Shown here piece after piece: positions 22,362 through 61,094 of a stretch of DNA of 64,000 nt; positions within the stretch are counted from its first letter, which is position 1, and each line of letters opens with the position of its first letter. Where the stretch lies: positions 38,573 to 102,572 of the forward strand of contig PHEB01000013.1 of the NCBI GenBank assembly GCA_002842735.1, read 5' to 3'. The position numbers and the translations under genes are program-made. The DNA comes from Alphaproteobacteria bacterium HGW-Alphaproteobacteria-7. GTDB lineage: Bacteria; Pseudomonadota; Alphaproteobacteria; Sphingomonadales; Sphingomonadaceae. Under the pieces are notes generated by a model, which was not told the origin of the DNA, did no database searches, and saw only the letters and a program-made list of their open reading frames with translations.

Positions 22362-22712
22362 TTTCATCAAATAAAAACAACATCTTGTCTTGAACGGGAC
22401 GGTTGCCAAGCCGCCCTGTGGTAACGCATTGATTCCGGACGAAGCCGCGCGGCGCTGCAATTCTCTTCGCAGCAACGGGCGTGCACTTATGGTTTACAGC
22501 CCCCTATAATCGGCGCATTTATTCGCCATGCCTGTCGGCAGTGTGGTTTTCCCGACAGACAAGGGCTGTGATGGGCCGGAACGCGCGTTGCGTCTGGCAA
22601 GATCGACAAGACACCCATCCGGCGATCGGTTCGCAAAAGCAATGCGCGGCTTGCCCGGCAACCCTTGCGGGCTGGCGCGTCGTCGATCGCTCCAAGGGTC
22701 GGGGGAAATCAT

Positions 22713-23354
22713 ATGCCGACAATGACGGAAAAAGACTTGCAGGCGAAGGATTCGCTTAAAGACAGGTCGATCACCATAACGGTCTCACCGGTGCTCAACT
22801 GGATCGACCCCATCAAACCCACGATCGAGACCAGTTCGATCGGGTTTGCAGTAACAGCCAGCGATCCTCCGGGAACGGCGACGGTCGATACTTCGGGATC
22901 GGTCAATATCTCGCAGATGCCCGCCGATCCGGGTTTTGATGAGAACATCGACATCACCTTGCTGCTCGATACCAGCACCATGCGGGATGCGAATGGCAAC
23001 CTGCTGACGGGCAACAACACGCCGCGCTGGGCAAAATCTGATGAAGGCACGACCTACACCGATGGCAAGGGCAAGACGCAGCACTGCGGATATGGCTGGT
23101 TCTGCCAGATCACGGACATGGGCCCTCCGCTTCAGTATCAGGCCCTGCCGCCGATCAGCATCGACAAGATGGCCTTCAAGCGCAAGGATGGCCTCAATCT
23201 GGTCATCGAAGACAAGTCCGATGACGGCAGTCCGCCCTATGCGTTCAAGTTCGGCTTCGTTCTACCTGGTCAATACAACGGCTATTTCATCAGCATCGAC
23301 CCGGTAATCAGCACCAAGTCTACTCGCACCAGCAGCTTCATGCTGAAGGACTAG
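22713..23354 (+). CDS. Hypothetical protein (orphan, convergent with TIR gene)
   Basis: Clean 213-aa ORF with ATG start; polar beta-rich composition; no recognised domain. Confidence 0.55.
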   Translation: MPTMTEKDLQAKDSLKDRSITITVSPVLNWIDPIKPTIETSSIGFAVTASDPPGTATVDTSGSVNISQMPADPGFDENIDITLLLDTSTMRDANGNLLTGNNTPRWAKSDEGTTYTDGKGKTQHCGYGWFCQITDMGPPLQYQALPPISIDKMAFKRKDGLNLVIEDKSDDGSPPYAFKFGFVLPGQYNGYFISIDPVISTKSTRTSSFMLKD

Positions 23355-25396
23355 CGCGATCGTTCGGCAAGATAGGCGGGGTGACGAAAGCCCCGCCTGT
23401 CGAGCCTTTCGCTGATTGCGGCCGCCTGCTCGGCAAGCCCCAGCCGCTTCGACAGCCGGAAACGATCCAGGTCGGTCCCGCCATATTCGGGCAGGAGGTT
23501 CAGCGCGGTGGTCCAATGTGACCGGGCGCTGTCCGTCCGCTTCAGTCTGGCATCGATATCGCCGGCCAGCAGCAACACGGCGATGCGATCCTTGTCTTCC
23601 AGATCGAGCCCCAGCGCCTTGTTTATGAGTGCGGCTGCGCGCGCCGTATCGCCTGCGGCCAGCGCAAAGCGCGAGCGGGTGCTGAGCTCGCGGCTGTGGA
23701 GGTAGCCAGACCAGGCGGAGTTCTTGGGATCTTTGGCGATCATCCGGCCGAGCAACGCGGCCGCAGAATCCAGCATCGCGCGGCTTTCCGCCGTCCGCCC
23801 GGCATAGGCGAGAATCTGCGTTAGATCAAGCCGCCCGCCAACCTCGCTATGCTGCCAATCGGTATTGGCCGGTTCCAGCCGCCGCATCTCCGCATTGAGC
23901 GCGATGGCCCGCTCGTAGGACTGGATCGCCTCGTCAAGCTGACCGAGGTGGAGCTGCTGGTCTCCGGCGAATTGAAGCGCGATTGACAGGCGATTCTTGG
24001 CCATCGCATCGGCCCCATCGCGCCGCAGCACCTCTTCATAGACCGCAATCTCGCGCTGGTGCAGCGTCAGCGCCTGCTGTTCCTTGCCCAGTCCCTTGTT
24101 CGCCATCCCGAGCCAGTTGATATTCGTCCCGATTTCGACCTGCCGCCCGGCATCGTAGGGCTCGGCCCGCGCGACCGTCTCGATCCGCTTCAGCCCACGC
24201 GCAAAGGCCTGTTCGGCCTCGGCATAACGCCCTTGTTCGATGTACATCACGCCAAGATTGGTCTCGGCATAGCTGCCTTCCATCTGCCACTTCGGGTTCT
24301 CTGGATCGAGTGCGATCAGCCGGTCGGCAAGGCGTTTGTATTCGCGATACTGGGCTTCGGCAGCTTTCAACTCACCCCGGTTATAGGCGATGTAACCGAC
24401 CCAGAATACGCTTTGCGCGTGGTCGAAAACGCGCTGTTGGTTGTCGGGATCGCGCGCCAGCTGTTCCTGCGTCGTGGCCGCGGCCTGCCGGAAAGCACGC
24501 AGGGCATCGTCGCTGTCCCCGCGAATATTGCTGATCTCGCCCACCAGCAGCAGCGCTCGTGCGCGGCGGCCGAGCGAATCCTTGTCAAGATCGCCGAGCT
24601 TCTGCTTCGCGTAGTAATCGAGCGCACGCGTGCCGACCACGTCGAGCGCATCAAGCCGTCCGACTGGTTCGAGCCTGTCACGCAGGTCAGTGAGCATGAA
24701 TTCGACCAGCCCATCAGCCTCGTTGCGCTGGAATTCGGCCTCCATGCGCGCCTGCACCGCAACCCACGCCAGCCCGCTCATCACAGTCGCCAGCGCCAGT
24801 GATGCTGATACAACAATGCGGGTGCGGGTGGTGCGACGGCGTTCGTCGCGGTTGACCAGCTCGCCCAGCCCCACGCCCAGCATCGCAGCGGCAAGTTTCA
24901 GGATGGCCCGCCGCTTGCCATCGCCGCTGATCCGCGCATCGGCGGCCAGTGGCGCATCGGCGAGGCTGTCGCCAATCGTAAGGTCGGAATTGACGCCATG
25001 AGTCAGCGCTATTGGGAAGCATTCGGCATCGGCGTTGCCGGGTTCGCCATCGACGATTAGGGCAAGCACTTTGTCCGGATCGCGGTGTGCCTTGAAGAAG
25101 GCAATTTCCCGGTCGACCCAACGCGATTGCGCTGAATTGGACGAACACACGACTATCAGGAATTCCGAAGCGAGCAGCGCCTTTTCCACCGCGTCGCCGA
25201 TGCTTGCCCCTGCGGCTTCTTCCTCGCGGTCCTTGAAAATGGGATTGAGGCGGGCGGGCACCTTGCCAAGTGCACCATTCTTGCCAACCAGTGCGGCTGG
25301 CGTGCGATAAGTTTCCAGCCTGTGATGCAGCCAGTTGCCCCATTTGGCGTCGGACCAACTATAGCTGATAAAGGCGCGGTAACGGTATTCGCTCAC
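23351..25396 (-). CDS. TIR domain - transmembrane - TPR repeat protein
   Basis: EYRYRAFISYSWSDAKWGNWLHHRLETYRTP...PIFKDREEEAAGASIGDAVEKALLASEFLIVVCSSNSAQSRWVDREIAFFK (TIR); TM IVVSASLALATVMSGLAWVAV; multiple TPRs (YAEAEQAFARGLKRIE, LDEAIQSYERAIALNAE). Confidence 0.88.
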   Translation of the reverse strand: MSEYRYRAFISYSWSDAKWGNWLHHRLETYRTPAALVGKNGALGKVPARLNPIFKDREEEAAGASIGDAVEKALLASEFLIVVCSSNSAQSRWVDREIAFFKAHRDPDKVLALIVDGEPGNADAECFPIALTHGVNSDLTIGDSLADAPLAADARISGDGKRRAILKLAAAMLGVGLGELVNRDERRRTTRTRIVVSASLALATVMSGLAWVAVQARMEAEFQRNEADGLVEFMLTDLRDRLEPVGRLDALDVVGTRALDYYAKQKLGDLDKDSLGRRARALLLVGEISNIRGDSDDALRAFRQAAATTQEQLARDPDNQQRVFDHAQSVFWVGYIAYNRGELKAAEAQYREYKRLADRLIALDPENPKWQMEGSYAETNLGVMYIEQGRYAEAEQAFARGLKRIETVARAEPYDAGRQVEIGTNINWLGMANKGLGKEQQALTLHQREIAVYEEVLRRDGADAMAKNRLSIALQFAGDQQLHLGQLDEAIQSYERAIALNAEMRRLEPANTDWQHSEVGGRLDLTQILAYAGRTAESRAMLDSAAALLGRMIAKDPKNSAWSGYLHSRELSTRSRFALAAGDTARAAALINKALGLDLEDKDRIAVLLLAGDIDARLKRTDSARSHWTTALNLLPEYGGTDLDRFRLSKRLGLAEQAAAISERLDRRGFRHPAYLAERSR

Positions 25397-25757
25397 GGCT
25401 CCCCCCACCGTTCGAACAATGTCGTCCTGCTCGCCAGGATAGGGCAAAGTCACCAAATCGCAAAATAGCAATATCGACGAAAAGACTTTCCGCTTTGAAA
25501 AGCGAATAAACTCGTGCTTGCTACCACGCGAAAAAGCACATTGAGCCGAAGATTGGTTATTCGCGTATAGGAGTCTCGAAACCCACGTATACTACTATAA
25601 GGTCTGGCAAGGTTTCCCTTCTCTGCGCGATGATCATGGCTTCACTGGCGGGCTCATGATCGTCGCCGCGTCTGCCCCAAACCTTCCGGCTGTTTGTAAG
25701 CTCAGCCAGCTGGTCTGGGCATTGGGGGTTGCTGTTCCAACAGTGTCCGTGCTGGTG

Positions 25758-25805: not shown

Positions 25806-26891
25806 TTACAGGTTCAACGGGCCGTGCTGGATATGCGGCAGCACATGGCGGGCGAACATGTCGGCTTCCTGCGCGTGCGGATAGCCTGACAGGATGAACG
25901 CCTCGATCCCCTCGGCCTGATAGGCGCGCAGTTTGGCGAGCACCTGATCGGGCGTGCCGACGATCGCCGCCCCGCAGCCCGATCGCGCGCGGCCGATCCC
26001 GGTCCACAGATTTTCTTCGACGAAGCCATCGCCATCCGCCGCGCTGCGTAATTCCTGCTGGCGCTGGACGCCGTAATTCTTGGCATCGAGCGATTTTTCG
26101 CGGATCGCGCGGCCTGCGTCATCATCCAGTTTCGACAGCAAGCGATCGGCATAGGCGCGCGCTTCATCCTCGGTCTCGCGCACGATCACGTGGGCGCGGT
26201 AACCGAACTTGAGCGTCCGGCCATAGCGCGCCGCTCGTTCGCGCAGGTCGGCGATGTTTTCGCGCACCTTGTCCATCGTGTCGGGCCACATCAGATAGAC
26301 GTCGCACGCCTCGGCGGCGCATTCGCGCGCTTCGTGTGACAACCCGCCGAAATAGAACGGCGGGCACTTGCCCGACAGCGTGGTGATGCGCGCCGGATCG
26401 AGCTTCAGCTGGAAGAACTCGCCCTGAAAATCGAGATGCTCGCCGTTCAGTAGCGTGCGCACGATCTTCATGATTTCGGTGCCGCGACGGTAACGCGGGC
26501 CACTTTCCATCTTTTGGCCCGGCAGATCGGAGGAGATGATGTTGACGTTCAGCCGCCCACCGGTGCCTGCCGCATTGGGGCCAAGGATGCGGTCAAGCGT
26601 CGCAATCCGGCGCGCCAGTTGCGGCGGCCAGTCTTCGCCCATCCGGGTCGCCCACAGTAGCTTGATCCGCTGCACCTGCGTTGCCACAGCGGCGGCGAAG
26701 ATGGTGGTATCTAGGCCCAGCTGATAGCCCGAAGGCAGCAGGATGTTGTCGAACCCGCCTTCTTCGGCGCGCAGCACGATGTTGCGGCAATGCTCCCAGC
26801 TGGATTGCAGATATTTGTCGGGCACGCCGAGAAATTCGTAATCATCATCGCACAGCGCGGAAAACCACGCGATTTCGCATTGTTGGGTCAT
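25806..26891 (-). CDS. LLM-class flavin-dependent monooxygenase (SsuD/SmoC-like); candidate sulfoquinovose monooxygenase
   Basis: SsuD-like luciferase fold (RIKLLWATRMGEDWPPQLARRIATLDRI; GGRLNVNIISSDLPGQKMESGPRYRRGTEIMKI); context with GH31, AKR and FMN reductase. Confidence 0.85.
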   Translation of the reverse strand: MTQQCEIAWFSALCDDDYEFLGVPDKYLQSSWEHCRNIVLRAEEGGFDNILLPSGYQLGLDTTIFAAAVATQVQRIKLLWATRMGEDWPPQLARRIATLDRILGPNAAGTGGRLNVNIISSDLPGQKMESGPRYRRGTEIMKIVRTLLNGEHLDFQGEFFQLKLDPARITTLSGKCPPFYFGGLSHEARECAAEACDVYLMWPDTMDKVRENIADLRERAARYGRTLKFGYRAHVIVRETEDEARAYADRLLSKLDDDAGRAIREKSLDAKNYGVQRQQELRSAADGDGFVEENLWTGIGRARSGCGAAIVGTPDQVLAKLRAYQAEGIEAFILSGYPHAQEADMFARHVLPHIQHGPLNL

Positions 26892-27022: not shown

Positions 27023-27937
27023 TTAGGGCAGTGGCACCCCCCGCGCGGCTACCAGCACCGCATACCAATCCTGCCGCGTCCAGCGCACGCTCAGCGCCGC
27101 CGCACCCTCTGCAATCCGGCCTGCGTTCTGCGAGCCGATAATCGGGATGATCCCCGCCGGATGCGCCATCAGCCAGCTATAGGCGGCAACCGTGCGCGAC
27201 ACGCCTTGCGCCTGCGCCACGGTATCAAGCGCAGCCGCCACCGCCTTGTCTCGCGCGCTTTCGGGCGCGGTCAGCAACCCGCCACCCAGCGGCGACCACG
27301 CCATCGGGGTGAGGCCAAGCATCATCGCCTGATCCAGCTCGCCATTTTCAAAGCAGGTGATGCGCAGCGGACTGATTTCGGGCTGGGTCGAAACCAGTTT
27401 GCGGTCAAGGAAATGGTTGAGCGCGGCGGTCTGCGCGCCCGTAAAGTTCGACACGCCCAGGCTGCGCACCTTGCCCGATGCCACCGCATCATCGAGCACG
27501 CGGGCGACCTCTTGCGGGTGCGCGAGGATATCGGGGCGGTGGATCTGCCACAGATCAACGTGATCCACCTTCAGCCGGGTGAGCGAATCATTGATTGCCT
27601 TGCGCAGATAATCCGCGCTTTGATCATAGGGCAGCGGGGGCAGGATCCCGCCCTTGGTGGCGAGCACCATTTGCCCGCGCAAGCCGGGTTCTGCCGCCAG
27701 CACTTCACCCAACAACGCCTCGGCATCGCCAAACCCTCCTGCGCCGTCAAAGCCATAAATATCGGCGGTGTCGAGGAACGTGATCCCCGCATCAAGCGCC
27801 GCGTGCACCAGCCGCGCTGCATCACCCGCAGTGCGCCCGTTTTCAGCGAGGCGCCACATGCCCCAGGCAATCGGTGACACCGCAATGCCGCTATGGCCAA
27901 GTGTGCGGGTGGCGGGGGGAAGGGGCAATTCACTCAT
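27023..27937 (-). CDS. Aldo/keto reductase (candidate SmoB-like 6-dehydroglucose reductase)
   Basis: AALDAGITFLDTADIYGF; LVLATKGGI; DHVDLWQIHRPD; VRSLGVSNFT. Confidence 0.9.
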   Translation of the reverse strand: MSELPLPPATRTLGHSGIAVSPIAWGMWRLAENGRTAGDAARLVHAALDAGITFLDTADIYGFDGAGGFGDAEALLGEVLAAEPGLRGQMVLATKGGILPPLPYDQSADYLRKAINDSLTRLKVDHVDLWQIHRPDILAHPQEVARVLDDAVASGKVRSLGVSNFTGAQTAALNHFLDRKLVSTQPEISPLRITCFENGELDQAMMLGLTPMAWSPLGGGLLTAPESARDKAVAAALDTVAQAQGVSRTVAAYSWLMAHPAGIIPIIGSQNAGRIAEGAAALSVRWTRQDWYAVLVAARGVPLP

Positions 27938-28943
27938 GAGATGGTCCTTTGGGCGGAGCGACAGAGGCGCGCTCCACCAGAGTGTGGGGCAGGCGGCGAT
28001 GGTTGATATCCCCGCCCGCAATCAGAATTTCAGTGGCGGTGCGCGCCAGTTCGGCCATCGGTTGGCGGATGGTGGTGAGCGGCGGCCAGACCGTGCGGGC
28101 CAGCGTGGTATCATCGAAACCAGCGACCGAAAGTTCGGCGGGCACGTTGATTCTGCGATCATGCGCCACGGCCAGAACGCCGGCCGCCATATCGTCATTC
28201 GACGCAAAGATCGCGGTGGGGCGATCAGGCAGATCGAGCAAGGCGCGCGCGCTGCGCACACCTGAATCGAAATCAAATTCGCCATCGACAACCAGATGCG
28301 GTTCAAACGGAATGCCCACCCGGTCAAGCGCGCGGCGATAGCCGAACAGGCGATCATCCGATGCCATGTGATTGGTGTGGCCTTTGATAAAGCCGATGCG
28401 GCGGTGGCCAGCGTTGATCAGATGCGTGGTCATGTCGTCGGCGGCCTGCGCATCGTCCATGAACACCGAACTGGTCAGCGCATGGTTGGTGCCGGGCGAT
28501 ATCCGCACAAACGGCACGTCCATCGATTCAAGCGCGCGCAGCACCGGGTCGCAATCGGTCACGGGGGATGACAGGATGATCCCGTCGACGTGCGTTTCGC
28601 TCACCAGCCCGCGCACCTGATCGCCCACGCGCGGATCAGCCACGTCAACCGGCTGCGCCAGCAGGCGGATGCCGTTTTCGTGGCACACATCCCAGCACCC
28701 TTTCTGGATCTGGAACATGTAATAGGGGCTGTGATTGTCGTAGATCAGCGCCACCTGATTGGATTTCGCGCCCGACAGGATGCGCGCGGCCACGCTGGGG
28801 CGAAAGTCCAGATCGGCCATCGCCTGTTCAACCTTGCCGCGCAGGGTATCGCTGACATAGGGGTGGCCATTGAGCACCCGGCTGACGGTTTTGACCGCCA
28901 CCCCGGCGCGCGCGGCAACATCGCGGATATTGGCCCTGCTCAT
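27930..28943 (-). CDS. LacI family transcriptional regulator
   Basis: NIRDVAARAGVAVKTVSRVLNGHPYVSDTLRGKVEQAM; sugar-binding domain with GHRRIGFIKG. Confidence 0.95.
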   Translation of the reverse strand: MSRANIRDVAARAGVAVKTVSRVLNGHPYVSDTLRGKVEQAMADLDFRPSVAARILSGAKSNQVALIYDNHSPYYMFQIQKGCWDVCHENGIRLLAQPVDVADPRVGDQVRGLVSETHVDGIILSSPVTDCDPVLRALESMDVPFVRISPGTNHALTSSVFMDDAQAADDMTTHLINAGHRRIGFIKGHTNHMASDDRLFGYRRALDRVGIPFEPHLVVDGEFDFDSGVRSARALLDLPDRPTAIFASNDDMAAGVLAVAHDRRINVPAELSVAGFDDTTLARTVWPPLTTIRQPMAELARTATEILIAGGDINHRRLPHTLVERASVAPPKGPSHE

Positions 28944-31000
28944 GCCCGATCGCCTCCGATATCGCGCAGCTGCGCAAACAGCCCCGCGAACACGCTGTCC
29001 GGGCGGGTGAACACCGGCGGCTGACCCAGCGGCGCAGACACGTCATGCCAGCCGGGGGCAAAGGCCTCACCCGTCCACAGATGGCTCCACTCCTGTTCGT
29101 TATCACCCGGTAGATAGACCCGCCGCATTGCCGCCCCCTTTTCGATTACTGGTGCCACCATCATGTCGGCCCCATACAGGAATTGATCCTGAATCGTGAA
29201 AGTTTGGCGGTCTTGCGGATAGTGCAGAAACAGCGCGCGCATGGCGGGTAGGCCGCTGGCCTGCGCTTCGGCCACCAGCTGCGCCGCATAGGGAGCGAGC
29301 GCGGCGTGAATGCGGCTCCAGCGGACGAAGCCTGCGATCAGTTCGGGTGTGCTGTCAATTTGCAGATTATCGTCGGGCCGGTTGCCTTCATGCGTGCGCA
29401 TTACGGGGCTGAACGCGCCCAGTTCATACCAGCGTAGCAGCAGTTCAGGCGTGCGCACATTGCCGAACAGGCTAGTATATCCGCCCACGTCCGAATGGCT
29501 GAAGGCATTGCCGACCAACCCGGACGACAGCGCGGCGGTGATCACCGTGCCGATGCCGTCATGGCGGCTGAAATCGACCGATTGATCGCCCGCCCACAAC
29601 AACGGGCAATGCGCCTGCACCCCGGTATGCCCGGCGCGCATGAACCACAACACATCACCGCTGCGCCCGCGCGAGGCGACGGCGCGCGCGTTCACCTCGG
29701 CCCAGCGCACCGGCCAGCGGTTATGTTCCTGCATCGGATCGCCATCGTGGAGCCTGAGATCGACCGGGAGATATTCGCCAAAATCGGCCATCCACCCGTC
29801 CAGCCCGAAATCGAGCATCCGCTTGCCGATCACCTCCTCGGCGAACCAGTCCGCAGCCGCGGGGTTGGTGAAATCGACCACGCCCGCGTCGAACTCGCCG
29901 AAATCGACCAGATAGGGGGCGTCAGAATCCAGCCGGCGCGCGAAAAATCCCATTGCCGCGGCTTCGGCGTAAAGCGGGCCATCAACCGCCAGATAGGGGT
30001 TCACATAGCCCATAAACCGGATGCCGCGCGCTTTCAGCGCGGCGATGCGATCAGGCAGACCGGGATAGCGTGCTGGGTTCCATTGCCAGTCCCAGAACAG
30101 GCGGCGGCCAAAGCTGGTTTCGCGCAAGCCCACCCAGTCTTCGCACCACAGCCCCGATATGGCCGCGCCTGCATCGATCAGGCGTTCGAGCCGGTCAAAG
30201 CTGTTCGCCCCGTCCTTCAGGCCCACCACCGCGCCGCCCAGCGCCCATTCAGGCAGCGACTGATGCGGGCCAAACCGTGCACCCAGTTGGCGCACCAGAT
30301 CAGCCGGCTCGCCCGCAAACAAATCAATCGCCACTTCGCCCGACCAGACATGGATACGCAGTCTTCCGGGCTGGGTCGCGTCCAGCTCGCAATAGTCGGC
30401 ATTGGCGAGGCTCAGCGCCCAGCCCGCCGAACACAGCACCGTCGGTTCGGGGTAATTGGTGGTCCAGTAATCCCCGCCCGCAAACGAGCCATCGGCGCTG
30501 GCCTGATCGGTCAACGCCGTGCCGGGTTCGCGCCCGACGCCCGGCTCACTGGTCCAGATCGGAAAGCGGCGGGTGTTGAGCGCAAGGTAGCTCATCTGCT
30601 CTCCGCCGCCCCACAGCACATCATCCGCGCCGAGGTTGAAATCGATGGTGATGCGATCATGCGGGGTCAGCGCCCTAAGGCTGAGCCGTCCGCCATCTGG
30701 CGCGATTTGTACCGCCATCTGCGCGGTTTCATTGAGGCTGGAGAGCACAAACCCGTCATCAGCGCGGGCGCATTGGGTAAGTTGCGCGGCGGGACGCAGC
30801 CCATCGCTGAGCCGGAAATTGCCGCGCACCATCGCTACCTTTGGGTCGCCTGAACCGATTGCAATGGCAGGTAAATCAGGCCTGTGACTGACAATAGTAT
30901 GCCCGCCCAGCAACAGGGCGAATCCATCCTGAAGTGCAGCCAACTGCGACGCCAACGCCCTTAACTCCCCGTATTGGTGCTTTCTGACACCGCTTGACAT
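28940..31000 (-). CDS. GH31 alpha-glycosidase, probable sulfoquinovosidase (YihQ/SmoI-like)
   Basis: GLWCEDWVGLRETSFGRRLFWDWQWNP; LDGWMADFGEYLPVD nucleophile region; LLWAGDQSVDFS; HSDVGGYTSLFGNVRTPELLLRW; FSPVMRTHEGNRPDDN. Confidence 0.88.
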   Translation of the reverse strand: MSSGVRKHQYGELRALASQLAALQDGFALLLGGHTIVSHRPDLPAIAIGSGDPKVAMVRGNFRLSDGLRPAAQLTQCARADDGFVLSSLNETAQMAVQIAPDGGRLSLRALTPHDRITIDFNLGADDVLWGGGEQMSYLALNTRRFPIWTSEPGVGREPGTALTDQASADGSFAGGDYWTTNYPEPTVLCSAGWALSLANADYCELDATQPGRLRIHVWSGEVAIDLFAGEPADLVRQLGARFGPHQSLPEWALGGAVVGLKDGANSFDRLERLIDAGAAISGLWCEDWVGLRETSFGRRLFWDWQWNPARYPGLPDRIAALKARGIRFMGYVNPYLAVDGPLYAEAAAMGFFARRLDSDAPYLVDFGEFDAGVVDFTNPAAADWFAEEVIGKRMLDFGLDGWMADFGEYLPVDLRLHDGDPMQEHNRWPVRWAEVNARAVASRGRSGDVLWFMRAGHTGVQAHCPLLWAGDQSVDFSRHDGIGTVITAALSSGLVGNAFSHSDVGGYTSLFGNVRTPELLLRWYELGAFSPVMRTHEGNRPDDNLQIDSTPELIAGFVRWSRIHAALAPYAAQLVAEAQASGLPAMRALFLHYPQDRQTFTIQDQFLYGADMMVAPVIEKGAAMRRVYLPGDNEQEWSHLWTGEAFAPGWHDVSAPLGQPPVFTRPDSVFAGLFAQLRDIGGDRA

Positions 31001-31014
31001 ACAGCGACAGAAAG
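30980..31014. promoter_or_regulatory. Inverted repeat around the GH31 start, candidate regulator site
   Basis: CTTTCTGacaccGCTtgacatacAGCgaCAGAAAG in the divergent GH31/TonB receptor region. Confidence 0.4.
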
Positions 31015-31056
31015 CGCAACTCAAGCGTCCAAAGATCGACCGCACGGGCGATGATC

Positions 31057-31068
31057 TGACGATCGTCA
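31057..31068. promoter_or_regulatory. Perfect palindrome, candidate LacI-family operator
   Basis: TGACGATCGTCA between divergent GH31 and TonB receptor genes. Confidence 0.4.
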
Positions 31069-31102
31069 AATGAGTTGATCAGGTTTGAGGGGAGAGTGCA
31101 AT

Positions 31103-33436
31103 ATGTCCGTCACCACCAGAATCGCGCTTAAAGCGCTTGCAGTTTCAGCCAGTTCGCTGGCGCTGATGCACGCCGCTCCGGCGCTCGCGCAGGATGAAGC
31201 AGAGGACACCGGCGGCATTGCCGAAATCCTTGTAACCGCGCAAAAAGTATCTGAAAATGTTCAGGATGTGCCGATTGCGATCACTGCAATCACCGCTGAT
31301 CGACTCGAGCAAACCGGCACCACCAGCCTTGAAGGGCTGACCCGGCTGGTTCCATCAGTAACCTTCCGCAAGGGCACCACCAGCGCCAACAGCGCGATTG
31401 TGATGCGCGGGGTCGGCACGATCACCTTCTCGGTTGCCGCCGAACCCAGTGTGTCCACCGTTGTCGATGGCGTTGTGCTGTCGCGTTCTGGCCAGGCATT
31501 CATGGATCTTGTCGATCTTGAACGGATCGAAGTTCTGCGCGGCCCGCAGGGCACCCTGTTCGGCAAAAACGCTTCGGCGGGCCTCGTCAACATGGTTTCC
31601 AAGGGTGGCACTGACACTCTGGAAGCCGTAGCGCGGGCCGAATGGTTTGAAGGCAATGAATATCGCCTTCGCGCGGCAATTTCCGGCCCGCTGGGCGAAA
31701 ACCTCAGCGGCCGCATCACCGGATTTTACGGCACCTATGATGGCAACATCACCAACGTCTTCGGCGGGCAAGAAGAAGACGTGAACGGGTATGAACATTA
31801 TGGCGCACGCGGGATCGTCGATTACGACAATGGTTCGGCAAAAATCCGCCTGATCGCTGATTACTTCAAGGCGGATGATGATTGCTGCGCCGATATCACC
31901 ACGGTCAGCCGTGGTGCGGTGCTGGATGCCGAACTGGGCCTGCCCGGCGGCGTGGCGCAGGGGCTCGATCAGCGCTACGTCAACCACAATCTCGTCACCC
32001 AGACCCGCGACGAACAGTGGAGCCTGACTGCATCGGGCGACTTTGATGTTTTCAACAGCCACACGCTGAGCTTTGTCGCGGGCTATCGCAACTGGAAAAA
32101 CCGCGAAATTCGTGAAGGTGATTTCCTGCCGCGCGCGCTGGTCGGCACGGCTGAATTGCACGATGACGGCACGGTAAAGACCGAGCAATATTCGCTCGAA
32201 GTGCGGTTGGCATCGGATACAACGGAACCGTTCTTCTATCAGGTCGGTGCCTTCGCCTGGCAATCCGACAACAAGCAGCAGTTCACGCGCGAAGTCATAA
32301 CCTGCGCCAGTTCAACTTTGCCGGTTGATCCGGTTACAGGCGGACAGCCATGCAACCTTGCGGATACAGTCAATACGATTTTCCCCACCGCAACATCCGA
32401 CAGCGATGTCACGTCGAAGAACTTTGCCGTGTTTGGTCAGGCAACCTATCATTTCAGTGACATGATCGCGCTGACCGGGGGGCTGCGTTATACATGGGAT
32501 GATCTGGAGTTCAGCCATTTCCGCGCTCCGGGCGTCAACGCTGCGACCGGCCTGCCTGCAACCGGGCCGGGCGTATCGGGTAACCCGGCAGGCGGCACGA
32601 TCGCCAGCGGCGGCAATGGCACCAACCTGTCGACTGGCTCAAGCACCAACGGCAATCTGTCGGGTAAAGCCGTTTTGCAGGTTTACGCAGCAGACGACGT
32701 CATGCTGTATACCAGCTATACGCGGGGGTATAAAGGCCCGGCCTTCAACGTGTTCTTCAATCACACCGCTCCCAATAATGCGGTGCCGATCGATGCCGAG
32801 ACGTCCGACGCGTTCGAAGCAGGGATCAAATCGCAGTTCCTTGACAATCGCGTGCAGCTCAACCTTGCCGCGTTCACGGTTGAATATGATGGGTTCCAGG
32901 CCAATAACTTCATCAATCTGAACGGCACCATCATCACCAACCTGACCAATGCGGGCACGGTCAAGACCGAAGGCTTTGAAGCCGATCTTGTCGTGGTTCC
33001 AGTCCGCGGGCTGACCCTGCGCGCGAGCGGTGCCTATGCCGATGCCAAGGTGAAGGAATTCAATCCCAATCCGATCACCAACGCGCCCGATGCCCGCAAC
33101 GGCACCAGGCTGCCGCTGGCCCCCAAATTCACCTATACTCTGGGCGCCAATTACGAAGCCGACCTTGGTGGCTTTGGCCTGCATCTTGATACCGACTTCC
33201 GCCACTTGAGCTCGCAATTCTCCGATCTTGGTGAAAGCGGCCCGCTTGATGGCTACGGCATCTGGAACGCGTCAGTCGGGTTTTCGGATCCGGATGACAA
33301 TTATCGTCTGACCTTCCATATCCGCAACATCACCGATGAAAGCTTTGCGCTGCTCAACGTTGGCAATGGCCAGCGGTTGCAAATCCCGCGTGAGGCGGAT
33401 CGTTATGTCGGGGTCAGCCTGCGCGCCCGTATGTGA
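31103..33436 (+). CDS. TonB-dependent receptor
   Basis: Signal peptide; plug EILVTAQKVSENVQDVPIAITAITADRLEQTG; DLERIEVLRGPQGTLFGKNASAGLVNMVSK; C-terminal beta-barrel. Confidence 0.95.
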   Translation: MSVTTRIALKALAVSASSLALMHAAPALAQDEAEDTGGIAEILVTAQKVSENVQDVPIAITAITADRLEQTGTTSLEGLTRLVPSVTFRKGTTSANSAIVMRGVGTITFSVAAEPSVSTVVDGVVLSRSGQAFMDLVDLERIEVLRGPQGTLFGKNASAGLVNMVSKGGTDTLEAVARAEWFEGNEYRLRAAISGPLGENLSGRITGFYGTYDGNITNVFGGQEEDVNGYEHYGARGIVDYDNGSAKIRLIADYFKADDDCCADITTVSRGAVLDAELGLPGGVAQGLDQRYVNHNLVTQTRDEQWSLTASGDFDVFNSHTLSFVAGYRNWKNREIREGDFLPRALVGTAELHDDGTVKTEQYSLEVRLASDTTEPFFYQVGAFAWQSDNKQQFTREVITCASSTLPVDPVTGGQPCNLADTVNTIFPTATSDSDVTSKNFAVFGQATYHFSDMIALTGGLRYTWDDLEFSHFRAPGVNAATGLPATGPGVSGNPAGGTIASGGNGTNLSTGSSTNGNLSGKAVLQVYAADDVMLYTSYTRGYKGPAFNVFFNHTAPNNAVPIDAETSDAFEAGIKSQFLDNRVQLNLAAFTVEYDGFQANNFINLNGTIITNLTNAGTVKTEGFEADLVVVPVRGLTLRASGAYADAKVKEFNPNPITNAPDARNGTRLPLAPKFTYTLGANYEADLGGFGLHLDTDFRHLSSQFSDLGESGPLDGYGIWNASVGFSDPDDNYRLTFHIRNITDESFALLNVGNGQRLQIPREADRYVGVSLRARM

Positions 33437-33500: not shown

Positions 33501-33548
33501 GTCCGGCCACGCTTGTCCCGCCCCTCTTCTCCCAGCTAGGAGCCTGTG

Positions 33549-34814
33549 ATGGCCGCACAATCTTCACCCCTGTCCAGCCGTCTGCGCTGGTCGCTGTTCA
33601 CGGTGTTGTGCATCGCCGGGGTGTTCAACGCGATGGATCGCCCGATCATCGCCATTCTCAAACCCGACATGATGGCGGATTTCGGCTGGAGCGACAGCGA
33701 TTTTGGCGATCTGGCCGCGGTCACGCAATTTTCCGCAGCCTTTGCGTTTCTGTTCACCGGCTGGCTGGTTGATCGGCTGGGCGTGAACCGTTCGATGCAG
33801 GTGGGCGCATCGGCGTGGAGCCTCGCCGCCATCGCTCATGGCTGGGCGATAACCACGTGGCAGGTGGTGGCAGCTCGGGTCGGGCTGGGGCTGACAGAGG
33901 CGGTGCAGACCCCGCTGACCATCAAGACAGTGGCGACGCTGTTTCCGCCGAACCAGCGATCCTTCGCGTTCGGGTTTGCGACGATGCTGGCGGGTGCTGG
34001 CACGATTGCAATGCCGTTCGTGATCCCGGCGCTGGCGCTGACAGTGGGCTGGCGCGGCGCGCTGGTGGCGGGCGGGATTGGCGGATTTATCTCGCTGCTG
34101 GCATGGATATGGCTCGCGCGCGGGCTCAGCCAGCTGCGCGAACGCACCGTTGACGAAGCGCCAGCCGATAGCGGCAGCGACACCGCCGGATACGGCCCGA
34201 TCCTGACCAACCGCAAGACCTGGGCCATCGTCGGGGCAAAGGCGTTATCCGACATGACGTGGTGGTTCATCAACTTCTGGCTGGCGGATTACTACCGCAG
34301 GGAATTCGGCCTTTCGACGATCGAACTGGGCGTGCCGCTGGCGATTGCCTTTGCCGGATCGGGGCTGGGCGCGTTGCTGGCGGGTTGGGGATCAACCCGG
34401 TTGCTTGAACGCGGCTGGGGGGTCAACCGCGTGCGCAAGGGGGTGATGTTGATCTCGGCGCTGATGGTGGCACCGCTGCCATTGGTGCTGGAGCTTAATT
34501 CGTTCTGGCCGGTGGCCTGCATGATCGGCGTGGTGATGGCGGGGCATCAGGGTTTTTCGCTGTCGATCTTTTCGACCATCACCGACGTTGTGCCCAATGC
34601 CAAGGTGGGCCGGGTAACAGCATTTGGCGCGTTCATGGGCAATATGGGCGGGGTGGCGATCAGCCTGATCGCGGGCCGGGTGCTGGATGCCGGGTTCGGG
34701 TTCGTGCCGCTGTTCGTGTTCGCGGCCAGCTCCTATCTGATTGCGTTGGCGTGGTTCCAGTGGCTATTGCCAACCATCCGCCGCGATGAAGGCGCGCTGG
34801 GCGCTGCTGTATGA
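33549..34814 (+). CDS. MFS transporter (ACS-like)
   Basis: 12-TM pattern; FNAMDRPIIAILKPDMMADFGWSDSDFGDLAAVTQFSAAFAFLFTGWLVDRLGVNRSM. Confidence 0.9.
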   Translation: MAAQSSPLSSRLRWSLFTVLCIAGVFNAMDRPIIAILKPDMMADFGWSDSDFGDLAAVTQFSAAFAFLFTGWLVDRLGVNRSMQVGASAWSLAAIAHGWAITTWQVVAARVGLGLTEAVQTPLTIKTVATLFPPNQRSFAFGFATMLAGAGTIAMPFVIPALALTVGWRGALVAGGIGGFISLLAWIWLARGLSQLRERTVDEAPADSGSDTAGYGPILTNRKTWAIVGAKALSDMTWWFINFWLADYYRREFGLSTIELGVPLAIAFAGSGLGALLAGWGSTRLLERGWGVNRVRKGVMLISALMVAPLPLVLELNSFWPVACMIGVVMAGHQGFSLSIFSTITDVVPNAKVGRVTAFGAFMGNMGGVAISLIAGRVLDAGFGFVPLFVFAASSYLIALAWFQWLLPTIRRDEGALGAAV

Positions 34815-34922
34815 GCGGTGCGGTTGCATTCAGATGATGTGCGGCCTAGTAGTGTGACACCGTAGGACAGAAAACATGGGCGAGGCTTTCCGGGACACGA
34901 TGCGCATGGTCAGATCGACATG

Positions 34923-36011
34923 ATGGACAATCGGCGGCCTGACTTTGATGCCTATGCGGGCGATCTGTTCGGGGAAATCATGCTGGCCGATACGGCTGCG
35001 GCGGCCCCGGCGGCGGCGCGCGAGCCGCTTTCCCGGTTCGTGCCCGGTCTGGCAATCTGCATTATCGCCAGCGCCGCTGCCGCGTGGCTCAGCCAGAATT
35101 ATGGTGTCCCGGTCATCCTTGCCGGATTGTTGATCGGGCTTGCGCTCAATTTCGCCGCTGGCGATACGCGCACCCATGCGGGGCTGGACGCCGCATCGCG
35201 CCATGGTCTCAGGGTGGGGATCGTGCTGCTCGGCTTTCAGGTGACGGCGATGCAGGTGGCCGCGATGGGGGCGGTGCCGTTTCTCGGCCTTGCGCTGGTG
35301 ATGTCGGCGGCGGTGATCGCGGCACTGCTGGCGGCACGGGCCACCAGGCAAAGCGCATCGGTCGGGCTGCTGGCGGGCGGCGCGACCGCGATCTGCGGCG
35401 CGTCTGCCGCGCTGGCGCTGTATGGTGTGATCGGGCGCGAACGGATCGATCAGGCGCAATTCACGCTGACGTTGGTGATTCTGGCTGCGGCATCGGCAAT
35501 TGCGCTGACCACCTATCCGGCGCTGACCCAGATGCTGGGTTTCAACGATGCGCAGGCGGGATTTCTGGTCGGCGCGTCGATCCATGATGTCGCGCAGGCG
35601 ATCGGCGCTGGCTTTGCCGTGTCCGATTCCGCCGGGGCGCAGGCGACCGTGGTCAAACTGACCCGGGTGGCATTGCTGGCCCCGCTGGTGACACTGGCGG
35701 CGCTGTGGATTGCGCGCGCGCATCCGGTGGCTGATGCGGGCACGGGTGCGCGGGTGCCGATGCTGCCGGGCTTCATTCTCGCTTTCCTTGCGCTGGTCGG
35801 GGTCAATTCATTGCTCAACTTGCCCGCCGTGGTCGCGGACAATGCGCTGATCGCGTCCAAGACGCTGCTGCTGCTGGCGGTGACTGCAACCGCGATGCGC
35901 ACCCGCACCGATCTGCTGCTGCAACTGGGCTGGCGCTCGGTCATGCCGGTGCTGGCGGCGACCATCGCATCGCTTGGCGTGGCGCTGGCCTTTGCGAAAT
36001 GGGCGGTGTGA
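34923..36011 (+). CDS. YeiH family putative sulfate/sulfite exporter
   Basis: LSQNYGVPVILAGLLIGLALNF; GLRVGIVLLGFQVT; GGATAICGASAALAL; GASIHDVAQAIGAGFAVSDSAGAQATVVKLTR. Confidence 0.88.
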   Translation: MDNRRPDFDAYAGDLFGEIMLADTAAAAPAAAREPLSRFVPGLAICIIASAAAAWLSQNYGVPVILAGLLIGLALNFAAGDTRTHAGLDAASRHGLRVGIVLLGFQVTAMQVAAMGAVPFLGLALVMSAAVIAALLAARATRQSASVGLLAGGATAICGASAALALYGVIGRERIDQAQFTLTLVILAAASAIALTTYPALTQMLGFNDAQAGFLVGASIHDVAQAIGAGFAVSDSAGAQATVVKLTRVALLAPLVTLAALWIARAHPVADAGTGARVPMLPGFILAFLALVGVNSLLNLPAVVADNALIASKTLLLLAVTATAMRTRTDLLLQLGWRSVMPVLAATIASLGVALAFAKWAV

Positions 36012-37498
36012 TGGAACAGACCTATGATCTTGCGGTAATCGGCGGCGGGGTGAACGGTGCAGGGATTGCCCGCGATGCCGCCGGGCGCGGGGCGCGGGTG
36101 CTGCTGCTTGAACGCGGCGATCTGGCGCAAGGCACCTCGTCATCCTCGACCAAGCTGATCCACGGCGGGCTGCGCTATCTTGAGCATTATGAATTTGCGC
36201 TGGTGCGCGAATCCTTGAGCGAGCGCGAAGTGCTGTGGGGGATTGCCCCGCATATCATCTGGCCTTTGCGGTTCATCCTGCCGCACCGCCCCGGCCTGCG
36301 CCCGCGCTGGCTGCTGCGGCTGGGGCTGTTCCTGTATGACCATATCGGCGGGCGCAAACACTTGCCGCCAACGCAGTCGGTGAAGTTGGCCAACCACCCG
36401 GCGGGCGCGCCGCTTAAGCCCGAATATACCCGCGCCTTTGCTTATTCGGATGGCTGGGTTGATGATGCGCGTCTTGTGGTGCTGAACGCACGCGATGCGG
36501 CGGATCGCGGCGCGGATATCCGCACCCGCTGCGAAGTGACGGCGCTGGAACGGCAGGGCGATAGCTGGCTGATCACCGCTGGCGGCGAACAGTTCCGGGC
36601 GCGCTGTGTGGTCAACGCCGCCGGACCGCGCGTGCTGGACGTGCTGGGACAGGCGGGTGAGCCGACCAGCCAGCGGATGCGGTTGGTGCGCGGATCGCAT
36701 ATCGTGGTGCGCAAGATTTTCGACCACGATTTCGCCTATTTCTTCCAGCTGCCCGATGGGCGCATCTTCTTTGCTATCCCCTATGAACAGGATTTCACCC
36801 TGATCGGCACGACCGATGTCGATCACACCGCCGGGCTGGATGAGGTGCGCGCCAGCGCCGATGAAATCGCTTACCTGTGCGCGGGAGCCTCCGAATATTT
36901 CCGCACCCCGATCACGCCCGATGATGTGGTGTGGACCTATTCGGGCGTGCGCCCGCTGGTCGATGATGGTTCGGGCAGGCCCGAGGCGGCGACGCGCGGT
37001 TATCGCTTTGAACTGGATGGCGGCGCGGGTGAGGCACCGCTATTGTCTGTGTTCGGCGGCAAGATCACCACCTACCGCCACCTCGCCGCCGAAGCGATTG
37101 AACGCCTCGCGCCGCTGTGCCCCGCGCTGGGCGGCGCGGAATGGACGCACGGCGCGCCGCTGCCCGGCGGTGATTTCGGGCGTGATGAAGCCCCGGCCAA
37201 AGCGCGCGAACTGGCCGCAGCCTACCCCTTCATCGGCCCGCAACAGGCGGCGCGGCTGATCCGGCTATATGGCACCCGCGCATGGGCAATCCTTGGCGCG
37301 GCCACCAACCCGGCCGATCTGGGTGAGGATTTCGGCCACGGGCTGACCGCTGCTGAAGTCGATTACCTGATCGATACCGAATGGGCGCGCACTGCCGAGG
37401 ATGTGTTGTGGCGGCGCACCAAGCTGGGCCTGCATTTCACGCCGGAACAAACCGCGCGGCTGACCCAATATATCACCGAAAGGACGGCATTATCATGA
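36011..37498 (+). CDS. glpD: Glycerol-3-phosphate dehydrogenase (FAD)
   Basis: YDLAVIGGGVNGAGIARDAAGRGARVLLLERGDLAQGTSSSSTKLIHGGLRYLEHYEFALVRESL. Confidence 0.95.
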   Translation: MEQTYDLAVIGGGVNGAGIARDAAGRGARVLLLERGDLAQGTSSSSTKLIHGGLRYLEHYEFALVRESLSEREVLWGIAPHIIWPLRFILPHRPGLRPRWLLRLGLFLYDHIGGRKHLPPTQSVKLANHPAGAPLKPEYTRAFAYSDGWVDDARLVVLNARDAADRGADIRTRCEVTALERQGDSWLITAGGEQFRARCVVNAAGPRVLDVLGQAGEPTSQRMRLVRGSHIVVRKIFDHDFAYFFQLPDGRIFFAIPYEQDFTLIGTTDVDHTAGLDEVRASADEIAYLCAGASEYFRTPITPDDVVWTYSGVRPLVDDGSGRPEAATRGYRFELDGGAGEAPLLSVFGGKITTYRHLAAEAIERLAPLCPALGGAEWTHGAPLPGGDFGRDEAPAKARELAAAYPFIGPQQAARLIRLYGTRAWAILGAATNPADLGEDFGHGLTAAEVDYLIDTEWARTAEDVLWRRTKLGLHFTPEQTARLTQYITERTALS

Positions 37499-38067
37499 CC
37501 ACCATCGTGGCCCTTGGCGGCACGGTCAATCCCGGCAGCACGACCGAACAGATGCTGCGGCTTGCCGCCAGCATTGCCGCTGGCGAGGGGGCGACGGTGC
37601 AGGTGTTCGGCGGCGAATATCTCACCGCGCTGCCGCACTATCTCGGCCCGACGCATGATCCTTCGTGCGGGGCGGAAATGGTCGCCGCCGTGCGTGAGGC
37701 CGATGGATTGCTGATCGCCGCGCCCGGCTATCACGGCACGATTTCGGGCGTGGTCAAGAACGCGCTCGATTACCTTGAAGATCTCGCCCGCGATGAACGC
37801 CCCTATCTTGATGGGCGCGCGGTCGGGCTGATCGCGACCGCGTTCGGCGATCAGGCATCGATGAGCACGCTGTTGACGATGCGCGCGATCACCCATGCCC
37901 TGCGCGGCTGGCCGACCCCGATGGGTGCCACCATCCGGACCTATCGCGGGCTGTTTTCGCCCGATGGCGAATGCCTGGATGAACGCGCGCGCGGGCAATT
38001 GGAGCTGGTGGGCAAGCAGGTGGTGCTGGGCGCGCGCAGCTTTGCCGCCGGGAGGGAGCTGCGGTGA
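37495..38067 (+). CDS. NAD(P)H-dependent FMN reductase family
   Basis: IVALGGTVNPGSTTEQML; ADGLLIAAPGYHGTISGVVKNALDYLEDL flavodoxin-like fold. Confidence 0.88.
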   Translation: MTTIVALGGTVNPGSTTEQMLRLAASIAAGEGATVQVFGGEYLTALPHYLGPTHDPSCGAEMVAAVREADGLLIAAPGYHGTISGVVKNALDYLEDLARDERPYLDGRAVGLIATAFGDQASMSTLLTMRAITHALRGWPTPMGATIRTYRGLFSPDGECLDERARGQLELVGKQVVLGARSFAAGRELR

Positions 38068-38629
38068 ACGCCGATACTGCTTTCGATCGGGCATTGGCCG
38101 ATATTGCCGCTGGCCGGATCGTTGTGCTGGCGGGAGAATTAACTTCATGGCCACTCACGGGCGCGGGCTGATCTGTCTGGCGATCACGCCAGAGCTGGCC
38201 AAGCGGCTGAGCCTGAGCCTGATCAATCCGGGAACGCATCGCCAGACCGGGCGGCCCTTTGCCCGATCGATCGAGGCGGCGAGCGGGGTTTCCACTGGCA
38301 TTTCCGCCGCTGACCGCGCCCACACGGTCGCAGTCGCGATTGCGCCGGGATCAAGCGCGGCCGATATCCATTCGCCCGGCCATGTCTTCCCGCTGATTGC
38401 GCAGGCAGGCGGGGTGCTGGCGCGGCCTTCGGCGGTTGAGGCGTCGATTGAACTGGCGCGGCTGGCCGACGCCGGCGACGCAGCGGTGATCTGTTCGATC
38501 ATGCGCGATGATGGTGAAATGGCGCGGATCGATGATATTGGCGATCTGCTGCGCGATCACGGGCTGGCGGTGGCCGATATTGGCACCTTGCTTGCCCGGA
38601 TCGAAAGCGCGGACGCAGAAAGGGCGTGA
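38064..38629 (+). pseudogene. RibB-like (3,4-dihydroxy-2-butanone 4-phosphate synthase) gene with internal deletion and frame change
   Basis: GTG frame: VNADTAFDRALADIAAGRIVVLAGELTSWPLTGAG*; other frame resumes INFMATHGRGLICLAITPELAKRL...GVSTGISAADRAHTV...PGHVFPLIAQAGGVLAR...ICSIMRDDGEMAR. The DDEDRENEGD-type region is missing between them. Confidence 0.75.
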
Positions 38630-38631
38630 CG

Positions 38632-39870
38632 ATGGCGGACGGCAATGATGCGAATGGCACGGCGCGATCCCGGTTGACCCGCCGGGCGTTGCTGGCCGGA
38701 GCAGGCGGCGGTGTGCTGGCCGCGCCGGTGCTGGCACAGCGCTTGATCGGTGACGGGATGATCGACCTCGGCCTGCCCGGCGGGCCGAGCGAGCGTCCGC
38801 TTACCCCGCGATTTCCGGGCAAGGGCGAAATGGTCGTCCATCGCGTCCGCCCCCCGGTGCTCGAAACCCCGATGGCGGTGTTCGATCAGGGCACGATCAC
38901 CCCCAATGACCGGTTCTTCGTGCGCTGGAACTGGGACATGCCGACCCAGATCAACGCCGCTGCGCACCGTGTGGCGGTGGGCGGCGCGGTGCGGCAGCCG
39001 GTGTCGCTGACGCTCGATGATATCGCCAATGCGGGCGATCATGTCGATGTGGTCGCGATCAACCAATGCGCGGGCAATGGCCGCGGGTTTTCCCAGCCGC
39101 GCGTTACCGGAGGCCAGTGGGGCAATGGCGCGATGGGCTGCGCGCGCTGGACCGGGGTGCGGTTAAAGGATGTGCTGGCCAAGGCAGGCGTGGCCGATGG
39201 CGCCGCGCGCGTGCGCTTTGCCGGGCTGGATGTGCCGATGGTGGATGGCGCGCCGCAATTCATCAAATCGATCCCGATCGATATCGCCATGCGCGATGAT
39301 GTGCTGGTGGCATGGGGCATGAACGGCGAATCGCTGCCGCTGCTGCACGGATACCCGCTGCGGATCGTGGTGCCGGGGTGGTTTTCGACCTATTGGGTCA
39401 AAATGCTGAGCACTATCGAAGTGCTGACCGGCGATGATGATAGCTACTACGTCGCCAAGACATATCGGGTTCCCACTGCCCCGGTAACGCCGCAGGACAA
39501 GGGGTTCGAAACGGTTCCGATTACCGCGATGCCGCCGCGCTCCTTCATCACCAGCCATGCCGATGGTGCGGTCATCGCGCTGGGTCAGCCGCTGGAACTG
39601 CGCGGGATTGCAATGGGCGGCGACGCGGCGCTCGCCAAAGTCGATCTGGTGGGTGCGGGGCTGGAATTGCCGTGCGAACTTGGCCCGGATGAAGGCACAT
39701 ATGGTTTCCGCCGCTGGTCGCTGCGCATCCCTGAGGTGACGGGCGATCTGGCGCAAATCGGCGCGCGCGCCACCAATGCCAACGGGATCACGCAGCCCGC
39801 CGAACAGGCGTGGAACCCGAGCGGCTATGCCCGCAATGTCATCGAACGTATCAGCTTGAGGGCGCAATGA
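38632..39870 (+). CDS. Molybdopterin-dependent sulfite oxidase/dehydrogenase family protein (SorA-like)
   Basis: Tat-like signal SRLTRRALLAGAGGG; Mo-Cys motif VAINQCAGNGRGFSQP; GYPLRIVVPGWFSTYWVKML; C-terminal dimerisation-like domain. Confidence 0.88.
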   Translation: MADGNDANGTARSRLTRRALLAGAGGGVLAAPVLAQRLIGDGMIDLGLPGGPSERPLTPRFPGKGEMVVHRVRPPVLETPMAVFDQGTITPNDRFFVRWNWDMPTQINAAAHRVAVGGAVRQPVSLTLDDIANAGDHVDVVAINQCAGNGRGFSQPRVTGGQWGNGAMGCARWTGVRLKDVLAKAGVADGAARVRFAGLDVPMVDGAPQFIKSIPIDIAMRDDVLVAWGMNGESLPLLHGYPLRIVVPGWFSTYWVKMLSTIEVLTGDDDSYYVAKTYRVPTAPVTPQDKGFETVPITAMPPRSFITSHADGAVIALGQPLELRGIAMGGDAALAKVDLVGAGLELPCELGPDEGTYGFRRWSLRIPEVTGDLAQIGARATNANGITQPAEQAWNPSGYARNVIERISLRAQ

Positions 39871-40214
39871 AACATTGGGCGATCATCCTTGTAGGCCTGT
39901 TGGCAGGCTGTGACAGCAGGCCGGACGTGGTGTTTGCCGATGCGGCGATTACCTTGCCCGATGATCTCACCGAACTGCCACCCGGCCCCGGCCGGCAGGC
40001 GGTGGTGGAAAATTGCACAGCCTGCCATTCGCCGTCGACAATGCTGCAACAACCGCAGGTTCCGCGCGCGAAGTGGGAATCGATCGTCGGCAAGATGATC
40101 GAGACCTACAAGGCTCCGGTGGATGAAAAGGCGATCCCCGACATCGTCGACTATTTCGTCGCGGTGCAGGCGGCGCAGGCGACCAACCCCGGCGGGTCGG
40201 CGGCGGGGCAGTGA
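39867..40214 (+). CDS. Small c-type cytochrome (SorB-like), probable lipoprotein
   Basis: Lipobox-like LVGLLAGC; heme motif ENCTACHS; overlaps SorA-like stop. Confidence 0.8.
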   Translation: MKHWAIILVGLLAGCDSRPDVVFADAAITLPDDLTELPPGPGRQAVVENCTACHSPSTMLQQPQVPRAKWESIVGKMIETYKAPVDEKAIPDIVDYFVAVQAAQATNPGGSAAGQ

Positions 40215-60480: not shown

Positions 60481-60491
60481 AGGAACGATCC

Positions 60492-61094
60492 ATGACCAAG
60501 GTGCTGGTGCTATACTATTCGAGCTATGGCCATATCGAGGCGATGGCCGCCGCGGTGGCTGATGGCGCAGCGAGTGTCCCCGGCACCGAAGTCGTGGTGA
60601 AGCGCGTGCCCGAACTGGTGCCCGATGATGTGGCAACCGCTTCGGGTATCAAGCTTGATCAGGCCGCCCCCATTGCCACCCCGGATGAACTGGCGGATTA
60701 TGACGCAATCATCTTCGGCACGCCCACCCGGTTTGGCAATATGGCGGCGCAGATGCGCAACTTCCTCGATCAGACCGGCGGGTTGTGGTTCACCAAGGCG
60801 CTGGTCGGCAAGGTTGGTTCCGTGTTCGTTTCCACCGCCAGCCAGCACGGCGGGCAGGAAACCACCATCACCTCGTTCCACACCACGCTGCTGCATCACG
60901 GTATGGTGATTGTCGGCCTGCCCTATTCCTTTGCGGGCAACGCCGAGATGGGCGAAATCAGCGGCGGCACGCCTTATGGTGCATCGACGTTGGCGGGGAA
61001 CGACGGCAGCCGTATGCCGAGCGAAAATGAACTGGCCGGCGCGCGTTTCCAAGGGGCGCACGTTGCCCAGATCGCGGGTAAACTGGCTGCCTGA
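60492..61094 (+). CDS. wrbA: NAD(P)H:quinone oxidoreductase, WrbA family
   Basis: [61 protein letters not shown]. Confidence 0.93.

Follow-up and report, generated by a model that had tools for sequence, protein, structure and literature searches.

Does the GH31 gene on the minus strand of this sphingomonad DNA encode an alpha-sulfoquinovosidase (SQase), and which pathway would such an enzyme serve? About ten billion tons of sulfoquinovose (SQ) are formed each year, and only for a small number of lineages is it established how the carbon is fully used and the sulfur released. In this study, we analysed a stretch of 64,000 nucleotides (the window). An earlier sequence-only reading of this DNA had dealt with the one gene and had proposed an SQase; we found that a whole sulfo-SMO cluster surrounds it. 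The following features were assigned:

25806-26891, minus strand: SmoC/SquD-type flavin-dependent SQ monooxygenase (predicted to convert SQ to 6-dehydroglucose and sulfite)
27023-27937, minus strand: SmoB/SquF-type aldo-keto reductase (predicted to convert 6-dehydroglucose to glucose; PF00248; best PDB matches 7bbz/7bby)
27930-28943, minus strand: LacI-family regulator (PF00356 and PF13377; 4-bp overlap with the SQase stop)
28940-30955, minus strand: predicted GH31 alpha-sulfoquinovosidase (SmoI/YihQ type), 671 aa from the inferred TTG start
30985-30999, no strand assigned: 15-bp operator-like element TGACACCGCTTGACA in the intergenic region shared by the SQase gene and the divergent TonB-receptor gene
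31103-33436, plus strand: TonB-dependent outer-membrane receptor with signal peptide (PF07715, PF00593)
33546-34814, plus strand: MFS transporter (PF07690)
34920-36011, plus strand: YeiH-family membrane protein, candidate sulfite/sulfate exporter (PF03601; below the TIGR00698 cut-off)
35999-37498, plus strand: GlpD, aerobic glycerol-3-phosphate dehydrogenase (NF009906, 748 bits against a cut-off of 352)
37495-38067, plus strand: NADPH-dependent FMN reductase, candidate flavin reductase of SmoC (PF03358)
38064-38629, plus strand: RibB-like paralogue, frame disrupted at 38137 by the loss of 61 bp compared with relatives
38626-39870, plus strand: SorA-type molybdenum sulfite dehydrogenase with twin-arginine-like leader
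39867-40214, plus strand: small cytochrome c with CTACH motif, candidate electron acceptor of SorA

The minus-strand open reading frame of the GH31 gene spans 28940-31069 (709-aa frame), and all peptides quoted in the sequence-only reading are present in it. The gene end at 31000 given there did not hold, since the in-frame ATG at this position directly abuts the conserved 15-bp element and lacks conservation among relatives. Both 31069 and 31000 were rejected as starts because the stretch is a conserved promoter/operator region and because several relatives have no ATG at 31000. A TTG at 30955 is the likely start, as judged from the upstream conservation among relatives; a purine-rich stretch followed by this TTG matches the start position of the homologues. 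With the start moved to 30955, the intergenic region with the TonB receptor gene becomes 30956-31102. The gene is the single GH31 gene in the whole genome, and the SQase is presumably cytoplasmic because no signal peptide was seen on it.

The residues R301, W304 and Y508 of E. coli YihQ (K-12 record NC_000913 b3878) had been said to be preserved, and an alignment to YihQ and the Agrobacterium SQase had been proposed as a check. In this alignment, the pocket residues coincide position by position, the three residues aligning unambiguously to R285, W288 and Y493 in the 671-aa numbering (R323, W326 and Y531 in the 709-aa frame). The nucleophile D405 of YihQ corresponds to D391 (D429 in the longer frame) and the acid/base D472 to D457 (D495). 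In addition, K247 and E272 correspond to K245 and E270 of the Agrobacterium SQase, whereas YihQ has Q262 and Q288 at these positions. The expectation that ordinary GH31 enzymes lack the set was borne out by the E. coli alpha-xylosidase YicI, in which the R301 position is occupied by D and Tyr is missing at 508; the W column of YicI does match, within a part of the alignment that contains gaps. The K/E/R/W/Y set and both catalytic Asp residues are kept in 77 of 77 aligned relatives.

Overall, the SQase is 56% identical to the crystallised Agrobacterium SQase and 42% to YihQ, and this resemblance is far beyond chance. In a phmmer search against the PDB (top match E = 2e-237), the Agrobacterium SQase came first (5ohy/5ohs, 793 and 791 bits), followed by 8r56, 6pnr and YihQ (581-624 bits) and then, much lower, by YicI (141 bits). 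The YihQ equivalog model NF007746 (PRK10426; NCBIfam) was passed with 807.8 bits at a cut-off of 553, while the protein scored far below the cut-offs of both the YicI and the MalA models; Pfam detected the GH31 barrel and C-terminal domains. For the predicted fold, the alignment used contained no YihQ row, and the first 23 PDB matches were SQase or YihQ entries only (TM about 0.82-0.86), followed by YicI-like enzymes at a distinctly lower score of about 0.65. Residues 482-498 around the pocket have a pLDDT below 50, and this low local confidence makes the AlphaFold model unusable for pocket geometry. The placement of the pocket residues therefore rests on the sequence alignment.

Downstream on the same strand, the SmoC-type protein has its best PDB matches in 7olf and 7oh2 (371 and 362 bits), which we take to be SmoC structures under generic PDB labels, compared with 188 bits for E. 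coli SsuD. An assignment as plain SsuD was rejected, as the scores of SmoC-type structures are roughly double and only 249 bits were reached at an SsuD equivalog cut-off of 518. The gene encodes the only luciferase-like monooxygenase (PF00296) in the genome. The entries 7bbz and 7bby matched by the aldo-keto reductase are presumably Agrobacterium SmoB structures, deposited as 'aryl-alcohol dehydrogenase'. The genes for SmoC and SmoB are co-localised in the window. Such co-localisation is used as the criterion for sulfo-SMO in PMC13372026. Taken together, the pocket alignment, NF007746, the fold and the SmoC/SmoB-type neighbours support the assignment of the GH31 gene as encoding an alpha-sulfoquinovosidase, in agreement with the original proposal.

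A LacI homologue with 47-93% identity is found in most sphingomonad loci, mostly adjoining the SQase gene, and the LacI protein would bind the 15-bp element. The exact sequence of this element is unique in the window and in its own genome, the chance expectation in the window at up to 2 mismatches being 0.41 matches. It contains a -35-like TTGACA facing the receptor gene. Of 80 related loci, 61 contain the 15-mer with up to 2 mismatches, almost invariably in the gap that separates the GH31 and receptor genes, and the block is kept in relatives of which several have no ATG corresponding to that at 31000. The 15-mer was absent at this threshold in 6 of 67 sphingomonad-type loci, one of which ends at a contig end, and in the 13 loci (rhizobial and others) that are not of the sphingomonad type. 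In several relatives, a second, weaker 15-bp copy lies near the start of the MFS gene (e.g. L041:4697 and L051:3631).

On the opposite strand, the TonB receptor gene, which is divergent from the SQase gene in nearly all sphingomonad loci, probably encodes an uptake system for SQ-glyceride, and the MFS transporter is the probable inner-membrane importer of the SQ glycoside or SQ. In the literature collection searched, no relevant title on TonB receptors in SQ uptake turned up. GlpD is the only protein of its type in the genome (single DAO_C), and its presence in the cluster would fit the use of glycerol released from SQ-glycerol; GlpK is encoded outside the cluster (G000:C11), and a glycerol-kinase-like open reading frame occurs in the related locus L086. 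No flavin reductase of the Agrobacterium type (PF01613) was found in the genome. Three further PF03358 proteins are encoded in it, and the pairing of the cluster FMN reductase with SmoC is therefore probable rather than certain. A second PF03358 FMN reductase gene lies at 60429-61094 (plus strand), next to another TonB receptor gene (58258-60480). SorA is the only PF00174 protein in the genome, with the SorA structure 2blf as best PDB match (322 bits, E = 5e-95), and in several close relatives the cytochrome c gene adjoins that of SorA.

In relatives, the gene that immediately follows the FMN reductase gene encodes a RibB paralogue of about 200 aa (intact e.g. in L003, L013 and L097). The protein matches PF00926 with 205 bits, which is below the ribB equivalog cut-off, and a canonical RibBA is encoded elsewhere in the genome. 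Compared with E. coli RibB, D33 is replaced by G, E38 by G/R/H, H153 by A/T and E174 by S/A in 22 of 22 copies; R37, D42 and H136 are kept in the copies compared (n = 22). E38 and H153 are, as we assume, the metal ligands of RibB; the paralogue group has lost these as well as residues of the acidic loop. Paralogues were called at E values of at most 1e-57, canonical RibBA proteins lying near 1e-51. By this threshold, 13 of 151 genomes of the family carry the paralogue, 12 of them SQase-positive and with a distance of about 3-8 kb from the SQase gene. This amounts to 12 of 23 SQase-positive genomes versus 1 of 128 others (Fisher p = 9e-11, uncorrected for shared ancestry). In the thirteenth genome (G118), the contig with the paralogue also holds receptor, MFS, YeiH, GlpD and FMN reductase genes and breaks off within the TonB receptor gene. 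Literature matches for sulfoquinovose together with RibB appear to stem from the word 'ribbon'. We tentatively consider, at slightly less than an even chance, that a RibB paralogue without metal ligands is dedicated to the sulfo-SMO clusters of sphingomonads. It would not be a DHBP synthase but would assist the flavin-dependent SQ monooxygenase system in a non-classical role, either in the handling of flavin or by acting on an SQ-derived sugar.

For conservation, 80 genome loci with SQase were retrieved, and genes cut off by contig ends were counted as absent. Homologues of SmoC were present in 67, of SmoB in 69, of LacI and the TonB receptor in 65 each, of MFS in 49, of YeiH in 39, of GlpD in 33, of the FMN reductase in 25 and of SorA in 17 loci. 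The gene order of the window is kept in most Erythrobacter and Porphyrobacter loci; among cultured close relatives, the loci of Erythrobacter tepidarius (L007) and E. ramosus (L077) are syntenic. SQase occurs in 23 of the 151 sampled genomes of the family; two species sampled from the same genus are without it. Next to the SQ cluster lies a gene (23351-25471, minus strand) whose product joins a TIR domain to TPR repeats and has a transmembrane-like stretch, possibly for defence or signalling; no homologue of it was detected in the 80 related loci. Between this gene and two tRNA genes, a 229-aa open reading frame (22665-23354, plus strand) has coding-like composition and no Pfam match.

In the pathway we propose, SQ-glycerol from plant, algal or cyanobacterial sulfolipid would cross the outer membrane via the TonB receptor and the inner membrane via the MFS carrier. 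R285, W288 and Y493 of the SQase would recognise the sulfonate, D391 would attack C1 with D457 as acid/base, and SQ and glycerol would be the products. SmoC, with FMNH2 from the cluster FMN reductase, would cleave the C-S bond to give sulfite and 6-dehydroglucose, which SmoB would reduce to glucose, while glycerol would be routed through GlpK and then the cluster GlpD. Sulfite would exit by the YeiH-type exporter and be oxidised to sulfate by periplasmic SorA and cytochrome c. Expression of both divergent operons would be released through a LacI repressor at the conserved 15-bp element. The analysis establishes the sequence identity, the pocket and catalytic residues, the gene content and synteny, the conserved element and the single copies in the genome, while it is the transporter substrates, the operator binding, the flavin-reductase pairing and the direction of sulfite flow that we infer. 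We are nearly certain that the gene encodes a retaining GH31 alpha-sulfoquinovosidase which heads a sulfo-SMO cluster in a sphingomonad of the Erythrobacter/Porphyrobacter group.

That the GH31 protein is an ordinary alpha-glucosidase or alpha-xylosidase with a coincidental resemblance to the YihQ pocket is scarcely conceivable: fold and catalytic residues are indeed common to YicI (141 bits), but R and Y are absent there, the YihQ model is passed and those of YicI and MalA are far from reached, the fall from SQases to other GH31 enzymes is sharp in fold and sequence, and SmoC and SmoB are neighbours. We reject this assignment on the basis of residues, models and fold. We also hold it to be very improbable that the SQase works on SQ glycosides in a cluster which, like ssu under sulfate limitation, only scavenges sulfur and supplies no carbon. 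The monooxygenase does fall within the SsuD superfamily; however, enzymes of the SmoC and SmoB type give back glucose, and the cluster holds GlpD, a sugar-type LacI regulator and SorA, which discards the sulfur as sulfate. The frameshifting deletion in the RibB-like gene, together with the patchy distribution and the two species of the same genus lacking SQase, might indicate a cluster that is decaying in this genome and a pathway that may be inactive. This is rather unlikely given that the remaining genes all have open frames, mostly with 70-93% identity to their nearest relatives (cytochrome c 61-68%), and that a RibB-like gene is missing altogether from about half of the genomes with SQase.

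As a sulfo-SMO cluster headed by an SQase, the locus would show this pathway to occur in the Erythrobacter/Porphyrobacter group, as a self-contained route from the outer membrane to sulfate. It also offers testable parts that are absent from the Agrobacterium model, namely the TonB receptor, the LacI operator, the built-in sulfite dehydrogenase and the RibB-like protein. Active Novosphingobium SQ users have been found, and Erythrobacter and Porphyrobacter are unmentioned in the main text of that study (PMC13372026).

The pathway itself is already known: sulfo-SMO (sulfo-ASMO) has been described in Agrobacterium tumefaciens and Novosphingobium aromaticivorans (PMC9594981, PMC12890257), and these systems have SQase, SQ monooxygenase, 6-dehydroglucose reductase and a candidate flavin reductase in common with the window. 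An SsuE homologue is present in many sulfo-SMO clusters, N. aromaticivorans being without one (PMC9594981). The Agrobacterium SQase SmoI (PDB 5ohs, 5ohy, 7ofx) has the same K/E/R/W/Y pocket, catalytic pair and pathway type, but the transporters and the regulator encoded in its cluster are different ones. E. coli YihQ (PDB 5aed, 5oht) shares R301/W304/Y508 with the SQase of the window, but feeds sulfoglycolysis (sulfo-EMP) and not desulfonation. The order of SorA followed by a small cytochrome c is that of the SorAB sulfite dehydrogenase (PDB 2blf), although in the window SorA is encoded inside the SQ cluster. The ABC importer with solute-binding protein that marks the Agrobacterium sub-type was not found, TonB receptor and MFS transporter being in its place; its absence is common to the sphingomonad relatives and therefore separates the sub-type, not the pathway. 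The genes of the rhizobial Agrobacterium locus (L065) include those of an ABC importer, a GntR regulator and a PF01613 flavin reductase; in the window, TonB receptor and MFS, LacI, a PF03358 reductase, SorA, GlpD and YeiH are found instead. The sphingomonad arrangement thus differs from that of Agrobacterium in how transport, regulation and flavin reduction are provided for and in the disposal of sulfite on site.
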